A stretch of 37,461 nt of DNA from a virus, in the IMG/VR virus record IMGVR_UViG_3300006802_000227, positions 1-37,461 of that record; one strand, given 5' to 3'. The position numbers were made by a program, and so were the translations under genes. The number at the start of each line of letters is the position of its first letter. The stretch's first letter is position 1. The notes beneath the pieces are model-generated. The model was not told the DNA's origin. It was given only the letters and a program-made list of their open reading frames with translations, and did no database searches. Positions 4,565-11,347 of the stretch are shown one piece after another.

Positions 4565-4741
4565 AATTGTCTCCTTTTAGTTTTTCATTCTTGTACCAGA
4601 TATCCCGCCAATCAGGTCTTAGATTCTTAACATCCCCTGTTATCTCTTTAAGGACAAAAAAGGGGGTGAAGCTATATTAGGTATTTTTAATGCAGGTAAG
4701 AATTTGTCAAAAACCTTATTTATATTAACTATGTTAGCCAT
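4554..4741 (-). CDS. 62-aa ORF joined across a candidate -1 frameshift (CCCTTTT)
   Basis: From ATG at 4741, which overlaps the polymerase stop as TAATG, frame 0 runs only 33 codons and ends at 4640. The -1 frame is open from just before the slippery run to 4554, where its stop overlaps the start of the 134-aa gene. This second part reads FVLKEITGDVKNLRPDWRDI and looks coding, but has no usable start codon of its own. The heptamer C CCT TTT at 4664-4658 fits the X XXY YYZ pattern and lies exactly where the frames join. The gene may use programmed frameshifting, or be broken by an indel in the C5T6 run through mutation or sequencing error. The function of the product is unknown. Confidence 0.45.
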
Positions 4742-6573
4742 TACCAATGATCTCCTATATCTAAGTCTGCTACTGTTTTAATTTTAAGTTCTATTGCGTG
4801 TTCCATAATCTCCTGACACTCCTTGGCCTCCTTCTCGTTCTTCACGGGAACGTTGACCTCATCGTGCACCTGAGAGTAGGGCAGGTAACCCGCTTCATAC
4901 ATGTTGACCATCGCCTGCTTGGTCTGGTCAGCACACGACCCTTGGATCAAAGCGTTGAACGCCTTGTGGGTGTATGCTCTCTCTAAATTTTTCCTTGAAT
5001 AACGTTCTTCAGCGTTTCGGCGTCCATAAACAGGGAGGGCGTCGAACTCTCCTTCCGGCTTCCAGAAATTAAATCTTCTGCGGCGTCCATAAAGCGTTCT
5101 AATAAAGCCTGTTCTTTGAGCTTTATCGGAAGTTGCTTCTGCGAGCTCTCTGATAAAAGGACAAAAAGAATCAAATGATTCAAGGATTTGTTCGCATTCA
5201 TCGATATCAACTCCGATATTTTCTGCCATCGTTGCTTTTCCCATTCCGTAAGACCGCCCGAGGACGATGTCTTTGGCTTGGTTGTAGTCGACTTCTGGAC
5301 ATTTTTCTTCGATGAACGAGTAGATTTTTTTGCCGCTGGTTTCGATGAAATGTCTAGCTTCATCTGCGCTTGGGATTTTTTTGATGATTCCATAATGTAT
5401 TTGCATTCGGGGTTCTTGGGCAGCGTAGTCTAAGCTGGCCCACTGATAGTCGCCTTCTGCCGTGTACAGACCTCTGACCCGCTTAGCATCGACGACTTCA
5501 CTTCTTTTCGGAATTTGCTGGATGTTCGGATTTTTGCAAGCAAATCTTCCAGTTCTCGTTCCGCCGTCGCCCACAGCAACTTGGAGAAAGTTGGGGTGAA
5601 CCCTTCCATTGATATTACCTTTGACGATGGCTTCATATACAAAGACGTTTCTAATTCTATTAAATTCTCGAACTCTTTGGATTTGTTCGAGTGTTCTATG
5701 ATTTTTACCATTTTGTTGTAACCAGTTCTTTGTGATACTGGCATTTCCTTTCTCAGTTTTTGGGTAGGCGATTCCTTCTCGATCTAATAAACGAGCCAAT
5801 TGCTCGGTTGACCATATGTCTACACCTCCAAGCGATTTCTTTAGAGCTTCCTCTTCCTTTAGCCATTCTTCATTTAATTCTTCTGCTTTTAATACGTCGA
5901 CGGGAATACCCCGCCAGTTCATTTCGACGATGATCGGAGTGACTCTAGTTTCGAGAGCCGCAACATGTATAAGAGATTGCGATTCAATCTCTGGTTTTTG
6001 TTTCTCATATACCTCGAATGTGTTCTTCGTGTCCATCTCGGCGTACGGTCCCACAAACCTTGCTGGCAACTTCCACATTTCGCTCTTAGGATTGACTCCG
6101 TAAGCCGATGCAGCCTCGTTAAGTAATACTTCATCTTTCGGTCTTTTTAAATAAGTTCTAGAAAGGGCGTCTAGCGAATAACCGTCTGGACGCTCCTCGT
6201 TGATTAAGCTTTCCATGATCTGCGTATCCACGATCTTGCCTTTGACGTCTATGTTTAGAGTCTTTAACCAGCCAAGGTCATAAGGTGCATTATGAAATAT
6301 ATACGTTTTAGAAGGATCACTGGTCACCTCTCTAACCCAAGAGATGACCAGCCGCCTGTCCAAGTTATCGCCATGCAAATGAGCGATAGGAAAATATCCA
6401 GTGAATGAACGGGAAGTGATCGCAATGCCAATCACTTCGCCGTCCTTTCTGTGCCAGCCGGGACCGGAGGAGCGTAGGTTAGGATCTTTAGTCTCTAAGT
6501 CTATCGCTATCTCCATATCCGAAATATATGGGAAGACGCAAGGAGGAGCCCAAGAACTGTTGGGCTCAAACAT
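4741..6573 (-). CDS. polA-like: Family A DNA polymerase with 3'-5' exonuclease
   Basis: This 610-aa replicative polymerase has a DEDDy proofreading domain followed by a family A polymerase domain. Exonuclease motifs are IAIDLETKD (D25, E27), FHNAPYDLGWL, and YAEMD near the end of the domain. Polymerase motifs are LDYAAQEPR (motif A, D382), NQAKDIVLGRSYGMG (motif B) and VHDEV (motif C, D571). The size is below T7 gp5 (about 704 aa). The position equivalent to E. coli Pol I Phe762 is Leu438 here. The ATG at 6573 is preferred over the ATG at 6591 because it overlaps the stop of the JAB gene as TAATG, the arrangement used throughout this operon. It is directly downstream of the ubiquitin-like cassette and likely co-transcribed with it. 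Confidence 0.95.
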   Translation of the reverse strand: MFEPNSSWAPPCVFPYISDMEIAIDLETKDPNLRSSGPGWHRKDGEVIGIAITSRSFTGYFPIAHLHGDNLDRRLVISWVREVTSDPSKTYIFHNAPYDLGWLKTLNIDVKGKIVDTQIMESLINEERPDGYSLDALSRTYLKRPKDEVLLNEAASAYGVNPKSEMWKLPARFVGPYAEMDTKNTFEVYEKQKPEIESQSLIHVAALETRVTPIIVEMNWRGIPVDVLKAEELNEEWLKEEEALKKSLGGVDIWSTEQLARLLDREGIAYPKTEKGNASITKNWLQQNGKNHRTLEQIQRVREFNRIRNVFVYEAIVKGNINGRVHPNFLQVAVGDGGTRTGRFACKNPNIQQIPKRSEVVDAKRVRGLYTAEGDYQWASLDYAAQEPRMQIHYGIIKKIPSADEARHFIETSGKKIYSFIEEKCPEVDYNQAKDIVLGRSYGMGKATMAENIGVDIDECEQILESFDSFCPFIRELAEATSDKAQRTGFIRTLYGRRRRFNFWKPEGEFDALPVYGRRNAEERYSRKNLERAYTHKAFNALIQGSCADQTKQAMVNMYEAGYLPYSQVHDEVNVPVKNEKEAKECQEIMEHAIELKIKTVADLDIGDHW

Positions 6574-7505
6574 TACTGTTTGGGTTGGCATTCTTCCAGC
6601 AATAACTTTTTCACGGCTTCCGTCAACACCATTTCACTTATCTCGTAATGCTCAGCCCATGATACAATACAGTCATATACCTCACCGTCTGCGTCTTTGA
6701 GGGAATCTAATACATCTTTAGGGTTGACCGCTTCTTCTGATATAAGGAAGCTCTCTACTATTTCAAAGGCGATGTCCCTGATCTCCTCTTTATTAGGAGT
6801 TGATGGTGTCATCTCCATCGGCTCGCTGTAGTCTCTACCATAGTAACCGCCGTAGCCACCATAATTACCAAAGGCTGATGCTACGATCTTCTTCTCAAAG
6901 ATGGCTTCTTTCCACCACTGAGGGAAAGGGAAACGACCATTCTGACGGATTACAGATTCTTTAATTCTTGTGTGTTTTTCCAGTGTATCCGACAGATGGC
7001 CGTCAAAGTCTATAAAAGTGCTTAGATTGTCGACTAGCAACATCTTTTTTGAGAAGCTGAATCGAGCGTGAATGTCTAACTCGTCCGCCTCCATGTGACC
7101 TAGAGTGACGTGCAAGCCGTCTTGGTCGATCTCATCCTTGTGGTCTGTCCCTGATTGGAATGCACCTGTTGTGCAGTGATGATGCACTGTCCCTAGATTC
7201 AACCAATTAGGGTCTGTTAGATCCGCCTTGGCTCTAAGTGTAGCCATCATCTCGTGCTCTGGGTCTTCCTTGGTGGTCATACCACTGGGGGATTGCGGGA
7301 ACGGAAAGGCTGACCACTTCTGCAAGACCTCATTATAATAAAGTCTTAGCTGAGCCTCAGCTTTATACTTCTGCTGAGTCCAGTGCATGAACCCGACAAT
7401 GTGATGCCACAGCTCTAAGGAAAGCTTTGCTTTCTTCCATTCAAAAGGTTTTGGCTCCACTGGCACATAGCCAGCGAACCACTCTGTTTCTGTAAATTTA
7501 TTCAT
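6573..7505 (-). CDS. JAB/JAMM (MPN) zinc isopeptidase of the Ubl cassette
   Basis: The 310-aa protein has a complete JAMM motif. H108 and H110 (VHHH), then seven residues, S118 and D121 (QSGTD) form HxHx7SxxD, which holds zinc in JAB-family deubiquitinase-like peptidases. A candidate catalytic Glu lies in the strand before it (E50 or E52, near KYKAEAQLRLYYN). The following DQDGLHVTLGHM segment resembles PRTRC protein A and other prokaryotic JAB proteins. A Gly/Tyr-rich linker (about 216-231, NYGGYGGYYGRDY) leads to an acidic helical C-terminus of about 70 residues that I do not recognise. It probably removes the phage Ubl from conjugates. The gene overlaps the 226-aa gene as ATGAATAA and the polymerase gene as TAATG. 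Confidence 0.85.
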   Translation of the reverse strand: MNKFTETEWFAGYVPVEPKPFEWKKAKLSLELWHHIVGFMHWTQQKYKAEAQLRLYYNEVLQKWSAFPFPQSPSGMTTKEDPEHEMMATLRAKADLTDPNWLNLGTVHHHCTTGAFQSGTDHKDEIDQDGLHVTLGHMEADELDIHARFSFSKKMLLVDNLSTFIDFDGHLSDTLEKHTRIKESVIRQNGRFPFPQWWKEAIFEKKIVASAFGNYGGYGGYYGRDYSEPMEMTPSTPNKEEIRDIAFEIVESFLISEEAVNPKDVLDSLKDADGEVYDCIVSWAEHYEISEMVLTEAVKKLLLEECQPKQ

Positions 7506-8178
7506 TTTCTATATCCAATCCATAAAATTCTATTAACTCTTCTGCTACATAATGATCGTTAAAGTCATCACTATCTAAAACCCTCTCAAGTGTGTCGTGA
7601 TCCACATACTCGTAATTATCAGTATCACCCTCTCCATCTTGGTATTGGTCGCAGAAGATCTCTCTAACCCTGTCTCGTAGCTCATCGAAATTAATACAGT
7701 CATTTAATTGATCTTCCTCGATAGTTATCTGACCACTGTAATGCTCATCACAAATGTAATTAGCACATCCTCTTACAGTATCCGTAGCTGTGTAGCTGAT
7801 ACTGTATGCGTTACTACCACCAGATGGTGTTCTCCGTGTGTAGGCCTCCCAGTGAGCTATGATGTGCTTAATTACACCTTCACTGGTTAAAGGAAAGTCT
7901 AGAGCTGTAAGCTTTGGCAGTATGACCAACCACATCCTACGAGTCGTGTCACTGTCGACAGATAGGATAGGTGAGTTAAGATGACGCTCTAGCTCTGTAT
8001 TATGTATCGGTGGGATACCATAATGGCCTTCCTTTATCCATTCAGGCAGATCGTCCGTTAGGGCTTGGAAGGTAAATCTCTTCAACTCATCATTTGCCAG
8101 TGGGTTTTCTTCTCTTAGCTCACTGATAGATGGGATCTCCACCAATTCTATGCCCTCAAGCAACAGCTTTGCATTCAT
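7498..8178 (-). CDS. Unknown 226-aa acidic protein embedded in the Ubl cassette
   Basis: No family is recognised. The protein is mostly helical and strongly acidic in its last 80 residues (for example GEGDTDNYEYVDHD). A central region holds GCANYICDEHYSG with two Cys, too few to claim a zinc finger. AAAGGA lies ten bases upstream of the ATG at 8178, which sits 23 bases inside the E1 gene. Its location between E1 and JAB makes it a candidate cassette component, such as an adaptor, ligase-like factor or substrate. This is inferred from position only. Confidence 0.6.
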   Translation of the reverse strand: MNAKLLLEGIELVEIPSISELREENPLANDELKRFTFQALTDDLPEWIKEGHYGIPPIHNTELERHLNSPILSVDSDTTRRMWLVILPKLTALDFPLTSEGVIKHIIAHWEAYTRRTPSGGSNAYSISYTATDTVRGCANYICDEHYSGQITIEEDQLNDCINFDELRDRVREIFCDQYQDGEGDTDNYEYVDHDTLERVLDSDDFNDHYVAEELIEFYGLDIENE

Positions 8179-8803
8179 ATTGATTGTCCTTTAGTTCAAA
8201 TGGTAAATATTTAAGTGATGCCTTACTATGGACGTGATTCCATAATAAGTGCAATATCTTGTGGGCTGCTCCCATGTTAGCTATTGCCAACTGAGGATGA
8301 GCCTCCTGAGCCTCTCCTGTGCATCGGACAGGGTTGCCTGATGTATCAGTCTCGATCTCTGGGTAACGGACTCTAGGGTCACGTTCTGTGCCTTTATCGT
8401 GTGGATAATAGATGTATGCTTCGTTGTCGAAGTATTCATTGCCTGCTATGATGCAAATCTTACCCTGACAGTCCGCCTCGAACAAAGAGTTCCTACGAGC
8501 CGTGTGATTGTCTGCTGCACATATCACAATGTCGAAATCGGCGAGTAATCGTCCACTCTCGAACCATTGATCCACTGCTTCTAGAGAGATCGTAGAATCG
8601 CGTAGGATTCGTTTATACATCGATACTAGACTCTTGGCCTTAGATCGTCCGACAAATCGTTCGTCGAACGCCTGACGGTCTAAATTCCGTGCTTCTAGGA
8701 TGTCTTTATCCTGAATGACTACCTTATTAAGTGGAAAACTCTTCAAAAGGACGGGTAACAAGTAACTCGTCACCCCTCCTGCTCCTATAATTAATATATT
8801 CAT
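8156..8803 (-). CDS. E1/ThiF-like Ubl-activating enzyme
   Basis: This 215-aa protein is a compact Rossmann-fold ThiF/MoeB/E1 enzyme, which adenylates the C-terminus of a ubiquitin-like protein. Visible features are the nucleotide-binding loop IIGAGGVTSYL (G7-G10), VVIQDKD (D32, D34), NLDRQAF (R43, Q44, the E1-type arginine finger region), VGRSKA, and ICAADN (D98). C161, in VRCTGEAQEAHPQLAIAN, lies where PRTRC-type ThiF proteins have a Cys and is a candidate thioester residue. No CxxC zinc motifs are present, unlike ThiF/MoeB. The ATG at 8803 overlaps the upstream stop as TAATG and has GAAGGG nine bases before it. With the Ubl and E2 genes nearby it should charge the Ubl for transfer to E2. 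Confidence 0.9.
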   Translation of the reverse strand: MNILIIGAGGVTSYLLPVLLKSFPLNKVVIQDKDILEARNLDRQAFDERFVGRSKAKSLVSMYKRILRDSTISLEAVDQWFESGRLLADFDIVICAADNHTARRNSLFEADCQGKICIIAGNEYFDNEAYIYYPHDKGTERDPRVRYPEIETDTSGNPVRCTGEAQEAHPQLAIANMGAAHKILHLLWNHVHSKASLKYLPFELKDNQYECKAVA

Positions 8804-9006
8804 TAAAATAACCCTTCTACTTCTTCTCGTCTCGTTCTTATACGATGGGATAAAGCGTTATGTATATCTATCAACTCACCGTATAAATCCATTAACCGAA
8901 CCCTCTCCTCTGCGGTCAGCTCAGCTTCATTACAAATAAGGGTGTTATCCATTACGTCGGCTTTCTCCAATATGTAGTCCAACTCCTCTCTTCCTTTAAG
9001 CACCAC
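8803..9006 (-). CDS. Small helical protein, 67 aa, in the Ubl cassette
   Basis: The start is GTG at 9006, with GGAGG six bases upstream inside the end of the E2 gene; it overlaps that gene by 11 bases and the E1 gene by one. The sequence forms two charged helices (REELDYILEKADVMD, and LTAEERVRLMDLYGELIDIH), as in a coiled-coil hairpin. No family is recognised. Its fixed place between E2 and E1 suggests a small accessory factor, perhaps bridging the two enzymes, but that is conjecture. Confidence 0.65.
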   Translation of the reverse strand: MVLKGREELDYILEKADVMDNTLICNEAELTAEERVRLMDLYGELIDIHNALSHRIRTRREEVEGLF

Positions 9007-10039
9007 GATACACCTCCACAGCTTTGCATAATGTCGGGTGGTTGAAGACGTCCAATTCTACGTCGTCTATGTCGAATATACTGTCACAGGTCACCCTGTC
9101 CTGTCTGTGAAATATCTGCTCGAATTTGAGGTTACGTATGTCATTGTTATACACGTTGTTGTGTAATAGTTTGAACAGCGTGCTGTAATCCGTTAGGTCT
9201 GCACCTTCTAAGTCATCTCCCATACAAATCCTGCCTTCACTGAATATATTATTGAAGGGTAGCTTGTATAGCTGCTCGTTTTTATAAATAGCTGCGTATA
9301 CTTCTGGTGCGTGATAACCACTGTTCGTTGCACGAACGATGATGTAGGTCTCAGGTAGATTAACCGCCACCTTTATCAATGGCAGCTCACCAGAGTATCC
9401 TTTATCTTGAGGTGCGATACGCATACCCTGCAAGTCTGGCGTGGTCGTCCAGTGACAGTTGACGTAAAGTCTCTGCACCGTCGTGATGTAGTTGATGTGA
9501 CCCTCTTCCACCACTGCCGCAAAGCCTTCTTTGATTCCTCGAATGAAGATCGGCTCAGGTGTGATGTCTAGGAAATTTCTAAAGTCAGCACGGCTCGCAC
9601 TGACCGGTGTTTGTTGATACTCCTCTTGGACTATCCCATTTTCTGTAATTATATATCTCTTTTGCATTGTGATTTCTTGGTTAGGTATTGGTATCTGTTG
9701 TATCTCTGGCACAACTGGCGAGCGGGCGCTCAATGTCCTCACTGCTAGGTTACTGCCCAGTCTGTCGTCTATCTTACGACGAACAACCCAATCGACATAC
9801 CGCTTAAGCATATTGGTGGAGCAATTATAAGTGCAATATCTTGTGTTAAGGTCGAAAGGTGAGTCGTATTCGACGATGTCTACGCTTAAAGGGTCGAAGA
9901 TTGAATAGGTAAGGTGCCACCACTTACCTGTTGGGTCTACAAAGACATCCTTCCCCTCATTGACAAAGCGAACGATGAAATGGCCGCCTTCCGGTGTGTT
10001 ATCCGGAAGGAGCCCTTCTAAGTCGTCCCAATTAGCCAT
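8996..10039 (-). CDS. E2-like Ubl-conjugating protein (PRTRC-B / Prok-E2_D type)
   Basis: The 347-aa protein has an unrecognised N-terminal region (about 1-165) and a C-terminal domain. The core of that domain, VYAAIYKNEQLYKLPFNNIF then GRICMGDD, matches the prokaryotic E2-like family D pattern (aPF.N....G.(V/I)C.G). C272 is the expected active-site Cys that would carry the Ubl. ATG at 10039 is chosen over ATG at 10081: it overlaps the Ubl stop by eight bases, matching the coupling seen elsewhere, and the longer start would overlap the Ubl gene by 50 bases. The next gene starts inside its last codons. It probably takes the Ubl from E1 and passes it to targets. The assignment rests on motif and context and should be checked by profile search. 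Confidence 0.8.
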   Translation of the reverse strand: MANWDDLEGLLPDNTPEGGHFIVRFVNEGKDVFVDPTGKWWHLTYSIFDPLSVDIVEYDSPFDLNTRYCTYNCSTNMLKRYVDWVVRRKIDDRLGSNLAVRTLSARSPVVPEIQQIPIPNQEITMQKRYIITENGIVQEEYQQTPVSASRADFRNFLDITPEPIFIRGIKEGFAAVVEEGHINYITTVQRLYVNCHWTTTPDLQGMRIAPQDKGYSGELPLIKVAVNLPETYIIVRATNSGYHAPEVYAAIYKNEQLYKLPFNNIFSEGRICMGDDLEGADLTDYSTLFKLLHNNVYNNDIRNLKFEQIFHRQDRVTCDSIFDIDDVELDVFNHPTLCKAVEVYRGA

Positions 10040-10244
10040 GGGCTTTGCTGTTCGCCTTCGGCTCGACGGTGATGATGTCACCAGACTCTAAGGAAGAAAC
10101 TGAAGACAGCTCCTCGCCATTTCTTACGTAGCGAACATTTTCGCCTATGCCTAGGAAGGCTTTTAAATTCTCGTCAGCCGAGATTTCAGACAGAGTTGTC
10201 GCCTCTGTGGTTCCACTTTTTAGTCCGTTCTTGATTGTGATCAT
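10032..10244 (-). CDS. Ubiquitin-like (beta-grasp) modifier protein with C-terminal Gly
   Basis: This 70-aa protein has the beta-grasp order: strand MITIKNGLKSG, strand TEATTL, helix SADENLKAFLG, strand VRYVRNGEEL, and a final SLESGDIITVEP strand as in ThiS, MoaD and PRTRC protein C. It ends KANSKAHG, so the glycine needed for E1 adenylation is already exposed and no processing is required. It is the first gene of the Ubl-E2-67aa-E1-226aa-JAB series. The stop overlaps the E2 start. AAGAAAG lies upstream as a weak SD. A ThiS/MoaD-like sulfur-carrier role is the alternative, but the E2 and JAB genes favour protein conjugation. Confidence 0.82.
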   Translation of the reverse strand: MITIKNGLKSGTTEATTLSEISADENLKAFLGIGENVRYVRNGEELSSVSSLESGDIITVEPKANSKAHG

Positions 10245-10530: not shown

Positions 10531-10725
10531 TCATAAACTTCTTATCTCTCTAAGGGTTGCTGGGCCAACGCCCACTATTTCCATTAATTGTTCGTCTGTC
10601 ATCTTCTTCGCATCCTTCGGCCAGATCTCCATCTGACCCATCAGTTCGCTGGTTCGCTTGCTGAATGACTGTTTTAACCATGCCCTACGAGCCATGTATC
10701 GAGGGCCTTGCCATAATGTGCTCAT
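10531..10725 (-). CDS. Small helix-hairpin-helix protein, 64 aa
   Basis: The C-terminal half reads MTDEQLMEIVGVGPATLREIRSL, a helix-hairpin-helix (VGVGPATL) of the kind that grips the DNA backbone. Its spacing also resembles the end of the RNA polymerase alpha-subunit C-terminal domain (T..EL......G...L.EI...L). The N-terminal half is basic. The ATG overlaps the endolysin stop as ATGA. It may bind DNA or touch the host transcription machinery; the second idea is inference from a short likeness only. Confidence 0.6.
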   Translation of the reverse strand: MSTLWQGPRYMARRAWLKQSFSKRTSELMGQMEIWPKDAKKMTDEQLMEIVGVGPATLREIRSL

Positions 10726-11045
10726 AATAATTCCTTTACTTTATTCCAATATCTGTCTGTGTTGGCTCGCTTAGCTCTCCAACTCGGCCCGCCGTTCCAA
10801 CAGCGTGCCATTTCTTCATATGAGCCGTTCGGCTCCCAGTGGCTGAGATACTTCTCAGCTATCTCAAATGAGACGAATGGATCGAAGCGATCCTGTATGG
10901 TGTATGTCGTTCCGTAGATGCGGTTAACATCTTTTATAACTACTGGATGTATTTGAAGCACTCCGACCGCCAAGCCGCTATCCCCAACGGCCGACGGTTC
11001 GAAGTTGCTTTCCACTAACATCAGTATGAACAAAAAGTGGCTCAT
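10722..11045 (-). CDS. Endolysin, SLT-type lytic transglycosylase/muramidase
   Basis: This 107-aa protein is a short soluble-lytic-transglycosylase-like domain. It has ILMLVESNFEPSAVGDSGLA with catalytic E12, then VGVLQIHP, and a late RCWNGGP motif that is typical of the fold. Such enzymes cleave the glycan chains of peptidoglycan to release progeny. The hydrophobic N-terminus (MSHFLFILMLV) is part of the first helix and probably not a cleaved signal. Two small membrane-protein genes directly upstream form the rest of a lysis block. The ATG at 11045 overlaps the upstream stop (ATGA). Confidence 0.85.
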   Translation of the reverse strand: MSHFLFILMLVESNFEPSAVGDSGLAVGVLQIHPVVIKDVNRIYGTTYTIQDRFDPFVSFEIAEKYLSHWEPNGSYEEMARCWNGGPSWRAKRANTDRYWNKVKELL

Positions 11046-11266
11046 AAAAATAATCTTTTTAATGTGAAAAGTTGAATGCTGACTACTATACCACTAAGCA
11101 CTCCAATACTCATAGCGTGATAACCTCCGCCAAATAATATAGGTAGTCCGATTGTTACACTGACGTCAACATATGCGTCATATCGTAAGGCGTTCTTACC
11201 CATCAGCTTAAGAGAGGTGATGGTAAGACCCGATCCAATCATGAGACTTAAAAATAAAATATCCAT
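11042..11266 (-). CDS. Small membrane protein, holin-like
   Basis: Starting at ATG 11266, the 74-aa product has a hydrophobic N-terminal helix (MDILFLSLMIGSGLTITSL), a short polar stretch (GKNALRYDAYVD), and two further hydrophobic stretches (VSVTIGLPILFGG and SIGVLSGIVVSIQLF), ending in basic residues. Two or three membrane passes next to an endolysin suggest a holin or antiholin. An upstream TTG at 11314 would add 16 residues that read through a hairpin region, so I prefer 11266, although neither start has an SD. Confidence 0.55.
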   Translation of the reverse strand: MDILFLSLMIGSGLTITSLKLMGKNALRYDAYVDVSVTIGLPILFGGGYHAMSIGVLSGIVVSIQLFTLKRLFL

Positions 11267-11347
11267 GAGGTGTAGTCGTCGTTTCGACGAGGCAAGGTGT
11301 AGTCGTAAGAGCAATGCCCCGAAGGGGATGACGCCTAGGCGTCATCC
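11267..11347 (-). other. Cluster of inverted and direct repeats between two lysis genes
   Basis: A perfect palindrome with 10-base arms (GGATGACGCC / GGCGTCATCC) and a TA centre lies at 11326-11347, over the stop codon of the 67-aa gene. Next to it is CCCC-TTC-GGGG (11317-11327), then CGTCG-AAA-CGACG (11277-11289). The 12-mer AGGTGTAGTCGT (plus strand) occurs at 11268-11279 and 11295-11306. On the leftward transcript these would fold into stacked hairpins without a U-tract. They could be a processing site or a weak attenuator controlling the next gene. Confidence 0.5.

Follow-up and report, generated by a model that had tools for sequence, protein, structure and literature searches.

The 37,461-base IMG/VR virus record IMGVR_UViG_3300006802_000227 (positions 1 to 37,461, hereafter the window) carries a run of overlapping minus-strand genes from 10244 to 4741. 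In order of transcription these encode a ubiquitin-like protein (Ubl), an E2-like protein, a 67-aa ORF, an E1-like protein, a 226-aa ORF and a JAB/JAMM protein, leading into DNA polymerase A, whose start overlaps the JAB stop (Table 1). An earlier note on this DNA had placed the Ubl, E2, E1 and JAB genes correctly in position, frame and on a single strand, but its gene list omitted the two further ORFs of the same overlapping run. Its description of a T7-like virus is borne out by the portal and the tail tubular proteins, which are of T7-like type; on inspection of the ORF list no RNA polymerase of the T7 type was seen. A promoter scan gave no excess relative to shuffled sequences. Directly upstream of Ubl, the interval 10722-11314 encodes a lytic transglycosylase (SLT, 7.4e-11) together with an apparently membrane-spanning small protein; both have homologues close to the cassette in relatives.

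Table 1. Genes of the overlapping run in the window.
Feature	Position	Strand	Remark
Ubl	10032..10244	-	70 aa
E2-like protein	8996..10039	-	347 aa
67-aa ORF between E2 and E1	8803..9006	-	GTG start
E1-like (ThiF-family) activating enzyme	8156..8803	-	215 aa
226-aa ORF between E1 and JAB	7498..8178	-	no domain recognised
JAB/JAMM isopeptidase	6573..7505	-	310 aa
Family A DNA polymerase	4741..6591	-	phrog_17 9e-103

The only strong family match of a single cassette sequence is that of E1 to Pfam ThiF (3e-16; 59.8 bits against a cut-off of 28.1), E2, JAB and Ubl all falling below the curated cut-offs. E1 carries the GAGG and NLDRQ motifs, K55, D98 and the catalytic C161 (codon 8323-8321), and the features of an E1-like protein of the ThiF/UBA superfamily, namely a Rossmann ATP-binding motif, adenylation residues and a catalytic Cys, are all present. 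All 54 distinct E1s have C161, D98, K55, D32, D34 and N40, together with three nucleotide-loop glycines. The E1 profile matches the E1s of SUMO, NEDD8 and ubiquitin and also the structures of Cap2 and BubCD.

The E2-like protein matches Pfam Prok-E2_D at 0.0026, below the cut-off for this single sequence, and contains a GRICMG motif with C272 (codon 9226-9224), N264 at position -8 and a Gly at -3. Across 28 homologues there is no change at N264, C272, G274, N298 or D300. The Cys is present in every homologue spanning the site, and among 47 such sequences Asn at Cys-8 is found in 46, Gly at -3 in 44, Pro at -9 in 40 and His at -10 in none. HPN-x7-C is the signature of E2 enzymes, and the spacing in these sequences matches it, with the His lost. 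At the family level, two profile-profile comparisons (hhalign) gave matches, one with E 2.3e-8 to aligned E2s that come mainly from Planctomycetota, the other with E 1.7e-6 to PRTRC_B. In the window protein the first 124 or so residues form an N-terminal extension absent from the other E2s. AF2 modelling gave a structure of low quality (pLDDT 53.6), and the fold search made with it, which returned no match, was therefore not used as evidence.

The window JAB alone matches Prok-JAB at 0.048, below the cut-off, while the best family member reaches 2.1e-5. The HxH-x7-SxxD motif is present (H108, H110, S118, D121) with E50 as the remaining JAMM acid; none of these five residues varies among 27 homologues, and a conserved Trp lies N-terminal to the JAMM motif. 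Neither of the outcomes that the earlier note had named as arguing against conjugation occurred: profile searches did find E2 and JAB similarity, and the relatives retain C272, C161 and the JAMM residues. Single-sequence searches of IMG/VR and INPHARED with JAB and E2 gave no relatives. When two other JABs of the family were compared by tblastn with 50,697 phage records, only one record was hit, and weakly, so that no phage with a close JAB relative was found there.

The window Ubl has no credible single-sequence family match in Pfam. Its AF2 model (mean pLDDT 88.6) predicts a beta-grasp fold, and Foldseek relates this model to structures of ubiquitin, NEDD8 and SUMO with probability 1.00, the E-value being only about 2e-3 for this very short chain. 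The conserved C-terminus is S66-K67-A68 (codons 10049-10041), after which H69-G70 form an unconserved tail whose codons overlap the ATG of E2. In nearly all members of the family the last three residues are S-K-A or C-K-A, the exceptions being S-K-A-H-G in the window, S-K-A-V (L094), S-K-A-W (L095), S-K-G-V-S-L-C (L096) and T-K-G (L097). The earlier note was therefore mistaken in taking a C-terminal Gly as the hallmark of this Ubl, and the terminal Gly was rejected as the conserved conjugated residue. Among cellular and plasmid relatives the endings are G-S-K-G, E-K-G-A, H-D-K-G (in a tandem protein), G-T-K-G, A-K-G followed by a tail, or G-D-R-G. Comparison of the phage, Planctomycetota and most PRTRC Ubls shows conservation of a terminal x-K-(G/A), apart from one x-R-G. 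In CBASS the modifiers have Gly or Ala as their last residue, and exchange of Gly for Ala retains partial conjugation (PMC10097602); the acceptance of both residues in that system makes the x-K-(G/A) ends supportive of conjugation. Tandem Ubl proteins are encoded at L103 3785-4240 and L094 4905-5393. In that of L103 each unit ends in D-K-G, one internal and one terminal, a layout which suggests a processed poly-Ubl; together with the tails of 1-4 residues elsewhere, it suggests that Ubls are processed.

One Ubl of the family (L023) matches Pfam ThiS at 7.8e-4 and E1 matches ThiF, as might be anticipated if Ubl were a sulfur carrier like ThiS, MoaD or Urm1, serving thiolation of tRNA or a cofactor rather than modifying proteins. 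This is improbable, because a conserved-Cys E2 and a JAB lie in the same operon and sulfur carriers are not known to use an E2. Moreover, sulfur carriers end in Gly-Gly and the end of this Ubl is usually Ala; the window E1 is without a rhodanese domain in Pfam, and no rhodanese or thiolase gene was recognised.

The 67-aa ORF has no credible match in Pfam, NCBIfam or PHROG and none among the proteins of relatives. It is the positional equivalent of a conserved 110-aa protein of the marine relatives, with which it cannot be aligned. That protein, between E2 and E1 (L089 2523-2855 and equivalents), carries the conserved motif GRKRGAILRYI and matches nothing in Pfam. The 226-aa ORF has no domain in Pfam, NCBIfam or PHROG and no match among the proteins of relatives, and it is absent between E1 and JAB in the marine relatives.

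A polymerase search brought in L023, where Ubl, E1 and JAB homologues lie beside polA. Two-sequence profiles then detected 54 E1 loci and 6 JAB loci in IMG/VR, and synteny was assessed with iterated HMMs. The survey of gene order proposed in the earlier note thereby revealed Ubl-E2-(x)-E1-JAB in more than 50 IMG/VR contigs, in most of them just upstream of polA, and in nearly all profile-found loci with sufficient contig. PolA is the most constant downstream neighbour of the cassette in relatives. Five large relatives (G001, G002, G004, G005 and G012) have the terminase (at 50-56% identity), primase, polymerase, portal and capsid in common with the window, which places the cassette in a mostly marine lineage of podoviruses. 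Two others (G006 and G007) share with the window only the cassette genes at the threshold used, so that the cassette is not confined to viruses of this lineage. Similar sets were observed on cellular contigs (MAGs of Planctomycetota and Omnitrophota), with Ubl, E2, JAB and E1 in L104 and L105, and JAB and E1 in L106.

In ten pairs pN/pS was below 1 for all genes, ranging from 0.03 to 0.15 for E1, 0.02 to 0.21 for Pol, 0.19 to 0.33 for JAB, 0.12 to 0.57 for E2 and, with few substitutions, 0 to 0.51 for Ubl. E1 is thus constrained about as strongly as Pol, and E2 mostly evolves fastest. The cassette genes are under purifying selection in the sampled pairs. The weak family scores of the single sequences could be those of a decayed or non-catalytic remnant, but such an origin is hardly credible when all catalytic residues are conserved and selection is purifying. 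Conservation of these residues, synteny and selection support the central claim of the earlier note, that of a conjugation-and-removal cassette coupled to the DNA polymerase.

The proximity to polA may be read in another way, in that Ubl would be attached to replication proteins of the phage, such as the DNA polymerase, and regulate replication as SUMO does on eukaryotic replication factors. JAB overlaps polA, polA is commonly downstream across divergent contigs, and E1 and Pol identities co-vary (correlation 0.87 over 250 pairs). Vertical descent alone predicts such co-variation, however, and many polA relatives are without the cassette; at the threshold used, none of the window's replication genes has a counterpart in the cassette-bearing G006 and G007. 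We regard replication proteins as unlikely to be the targets.

The closest known systems are operon type 6d of Iyer, Burroughs and Aravind (2006) and PRTRC. Type 6d likewise clusters a stand-alone Ubl, an E1-like protein, a separate E2-like protein that has a Cys but not the classical His, and a JAB as a protein of its own (PMC1779556), and the phage E2 has the same combination of catalytic Cys without the classical His (0 of 47). In the part of that account drawn on here, type 6d is described from diverse bacteria and its Ubl ends in a conserved Gly, whereas the present cassette adjoins polA in a podovirus lineage and its Ubl ends in S-K-A; phages are treated there only for the Ubl/JAB tail-assembly genes (PMC1779556). 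The type 6d set further includes a largely alpha-helical partner protein, and a JAB with an N-terminal domain beside an E1 that lacks a rhodanese domain. With regard to PRTRC (TIGR03735, 03736, 03737), E1, E2 and JAB match PRTRC_ThiF, PRTRC_B and PRTRC_A, the latter two being the sole NCBIfam matches of E2 and JAB and PRTRC_ThiF one of those of E1. The scores are far below the curated cut-offs (16.1 of 101.8 bits for PRTRC_A, 37.5 of 144.75 for ThiF and 13.5 of 131.45 for B), and by these the cassette is not a member of PRTRC. An equivalent of x-K-G is found at the C-terminus of two of three PRTRC_C proteins compared, the PRTRC gene order differs from that of the phages, and family scans recognised no ParB-type or PRTRC_E gene among the phage cassette proteins. 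The resemblance to PRTRC pointed out in the earlier note is thus real at the level of profiles, though below the NCBI cut-offs.

Type II CBASS (Cap2/Cap3), Bil and Bub employ E1, E2 and JAB chemistry of the kind predicted for the phage cassette. They are host defences, whereas the present cassette is viral. Cap2 is an E1-E2 fusion and its modifier is a cGAS enzyme; in the phages E1 and E2 are separate genes, and no cGAS/DncV-like nucleotidyltransferase is found among the cassette proteins, which sets them apart from type II CBASS. The action of related enzymes in host defence (PMC10097602; Bil as cited in PMC12660748) raises the possibility that the cassette antagonises such Ubl-based systems, either by competition for the host modifier or by its removal. 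A JAB would be enough to strip tags. Stripping does not call for a complete set with its own Ubl, and we consider antagonism of this kind rather doubtful as the specific role; it is a sub-case of conjugation in the service of counter-defence.

Phage-encoded E1 and JAB are also found in other phages, Acinetobacter phage ME3 and crAss-like phages, where the annotations name no complete pathway. In ME3 the E1 and JAB are accompanied by a weakly matching E2-like protein and a candidate for Ubl; the parts recognised in the crAss-like bajarodcaudo virus are E1 and a JAB-like protein. The ME3 JAB gene (L036 2730-5840) is apparently split near the first His of HxH by a segment that contains a group I intron (Rfam 2.8e-20) together with a tRNA and several ORFs. 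No paper describing a phage-borne Ubl cassette of this composition was found among open-licence PMC papers.

A terminase-anchored scan covered at least 80 loci. Among the loci listed that span the interval from polA to terminase, some have the cassette and L170, L181, L195 and L205 have nucleotide genes, and among the loci listed six terminase relatives carry nucleotide genes in place of the cassette. The modules of L170, L181, L195 and L205 comprise varying sets of thymidylate-synthase family, kinase, dCMP deaminase, methyltransferase and DUF932 genes, and represent nucleotide-metabolism or possibly DNA-modification modules, although they may simply make dTTP. Of the contigs examined, 72 records have two or more cassette parts and no nucleotide genes, seven have two or more nucleotide genes and no cassette, and none has both cassette and module. 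This exclusion is suggestive only, given overlapping pieces of one contig, partial contigs and the kinship of the genomes, and with only seven records of two or more nucleotide genes it may reflect one ancient replacement. Since the cassette is missing from many members of the lineage, it is accessory and not essential lineage-wide.

Taken as a whole, the gene content makes it likely that the cassette is a self-contained, reversible pathway of ubiquitin-like conjugation used in infection; that the set includes no E3 counts against conjugation. JAB would trim Ubl after S-K-A where a tail exists, and E1 would adenylate the Ala carboxylate and take Ubl onto C161, from which it would pass to C272 of E2. 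E2 would then place Ubl on lysines of target proteins, from which JAB would remove it again. With less certainty, the targets would be host or viral proteins whose tagging favours replication of the phage. Such tagging would most likely disarm some process or defence of the host, given that in sister phages the same interval is occupied by a nucleotide-metabolism or possible DNA-modification module and that the two were found together on none of the contigs examined; the role is probably one of host take-over or counter-defence. More tentatively, and with the odds somewhat against so specific a picture, one may speculate that this widespread, mostly marine podovirus lineage uses its own complete, Ala-ending pathway of Ubl conjugation and deconjugation as an infection weapon in the slot that sister phages fill with that module.

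An Ala-ending Ubl predicts that trypsin would leave a single Ala on the modified lysine, about +71 Da, a remnant for which diGly antibodies were not designed. With the phage cassettes, compact E1/E2/JAB sets would become available for study as a family. Ubiquitin-like conjugation in bacteria is best known as host antiviral defence, and a conserved viral version would show that phages use Ubl chemistry offensively or for self-regulation. The gene set carried by the window virus and dozens of uncultured relatives suggests a viral pathway of protein tagging during infection.
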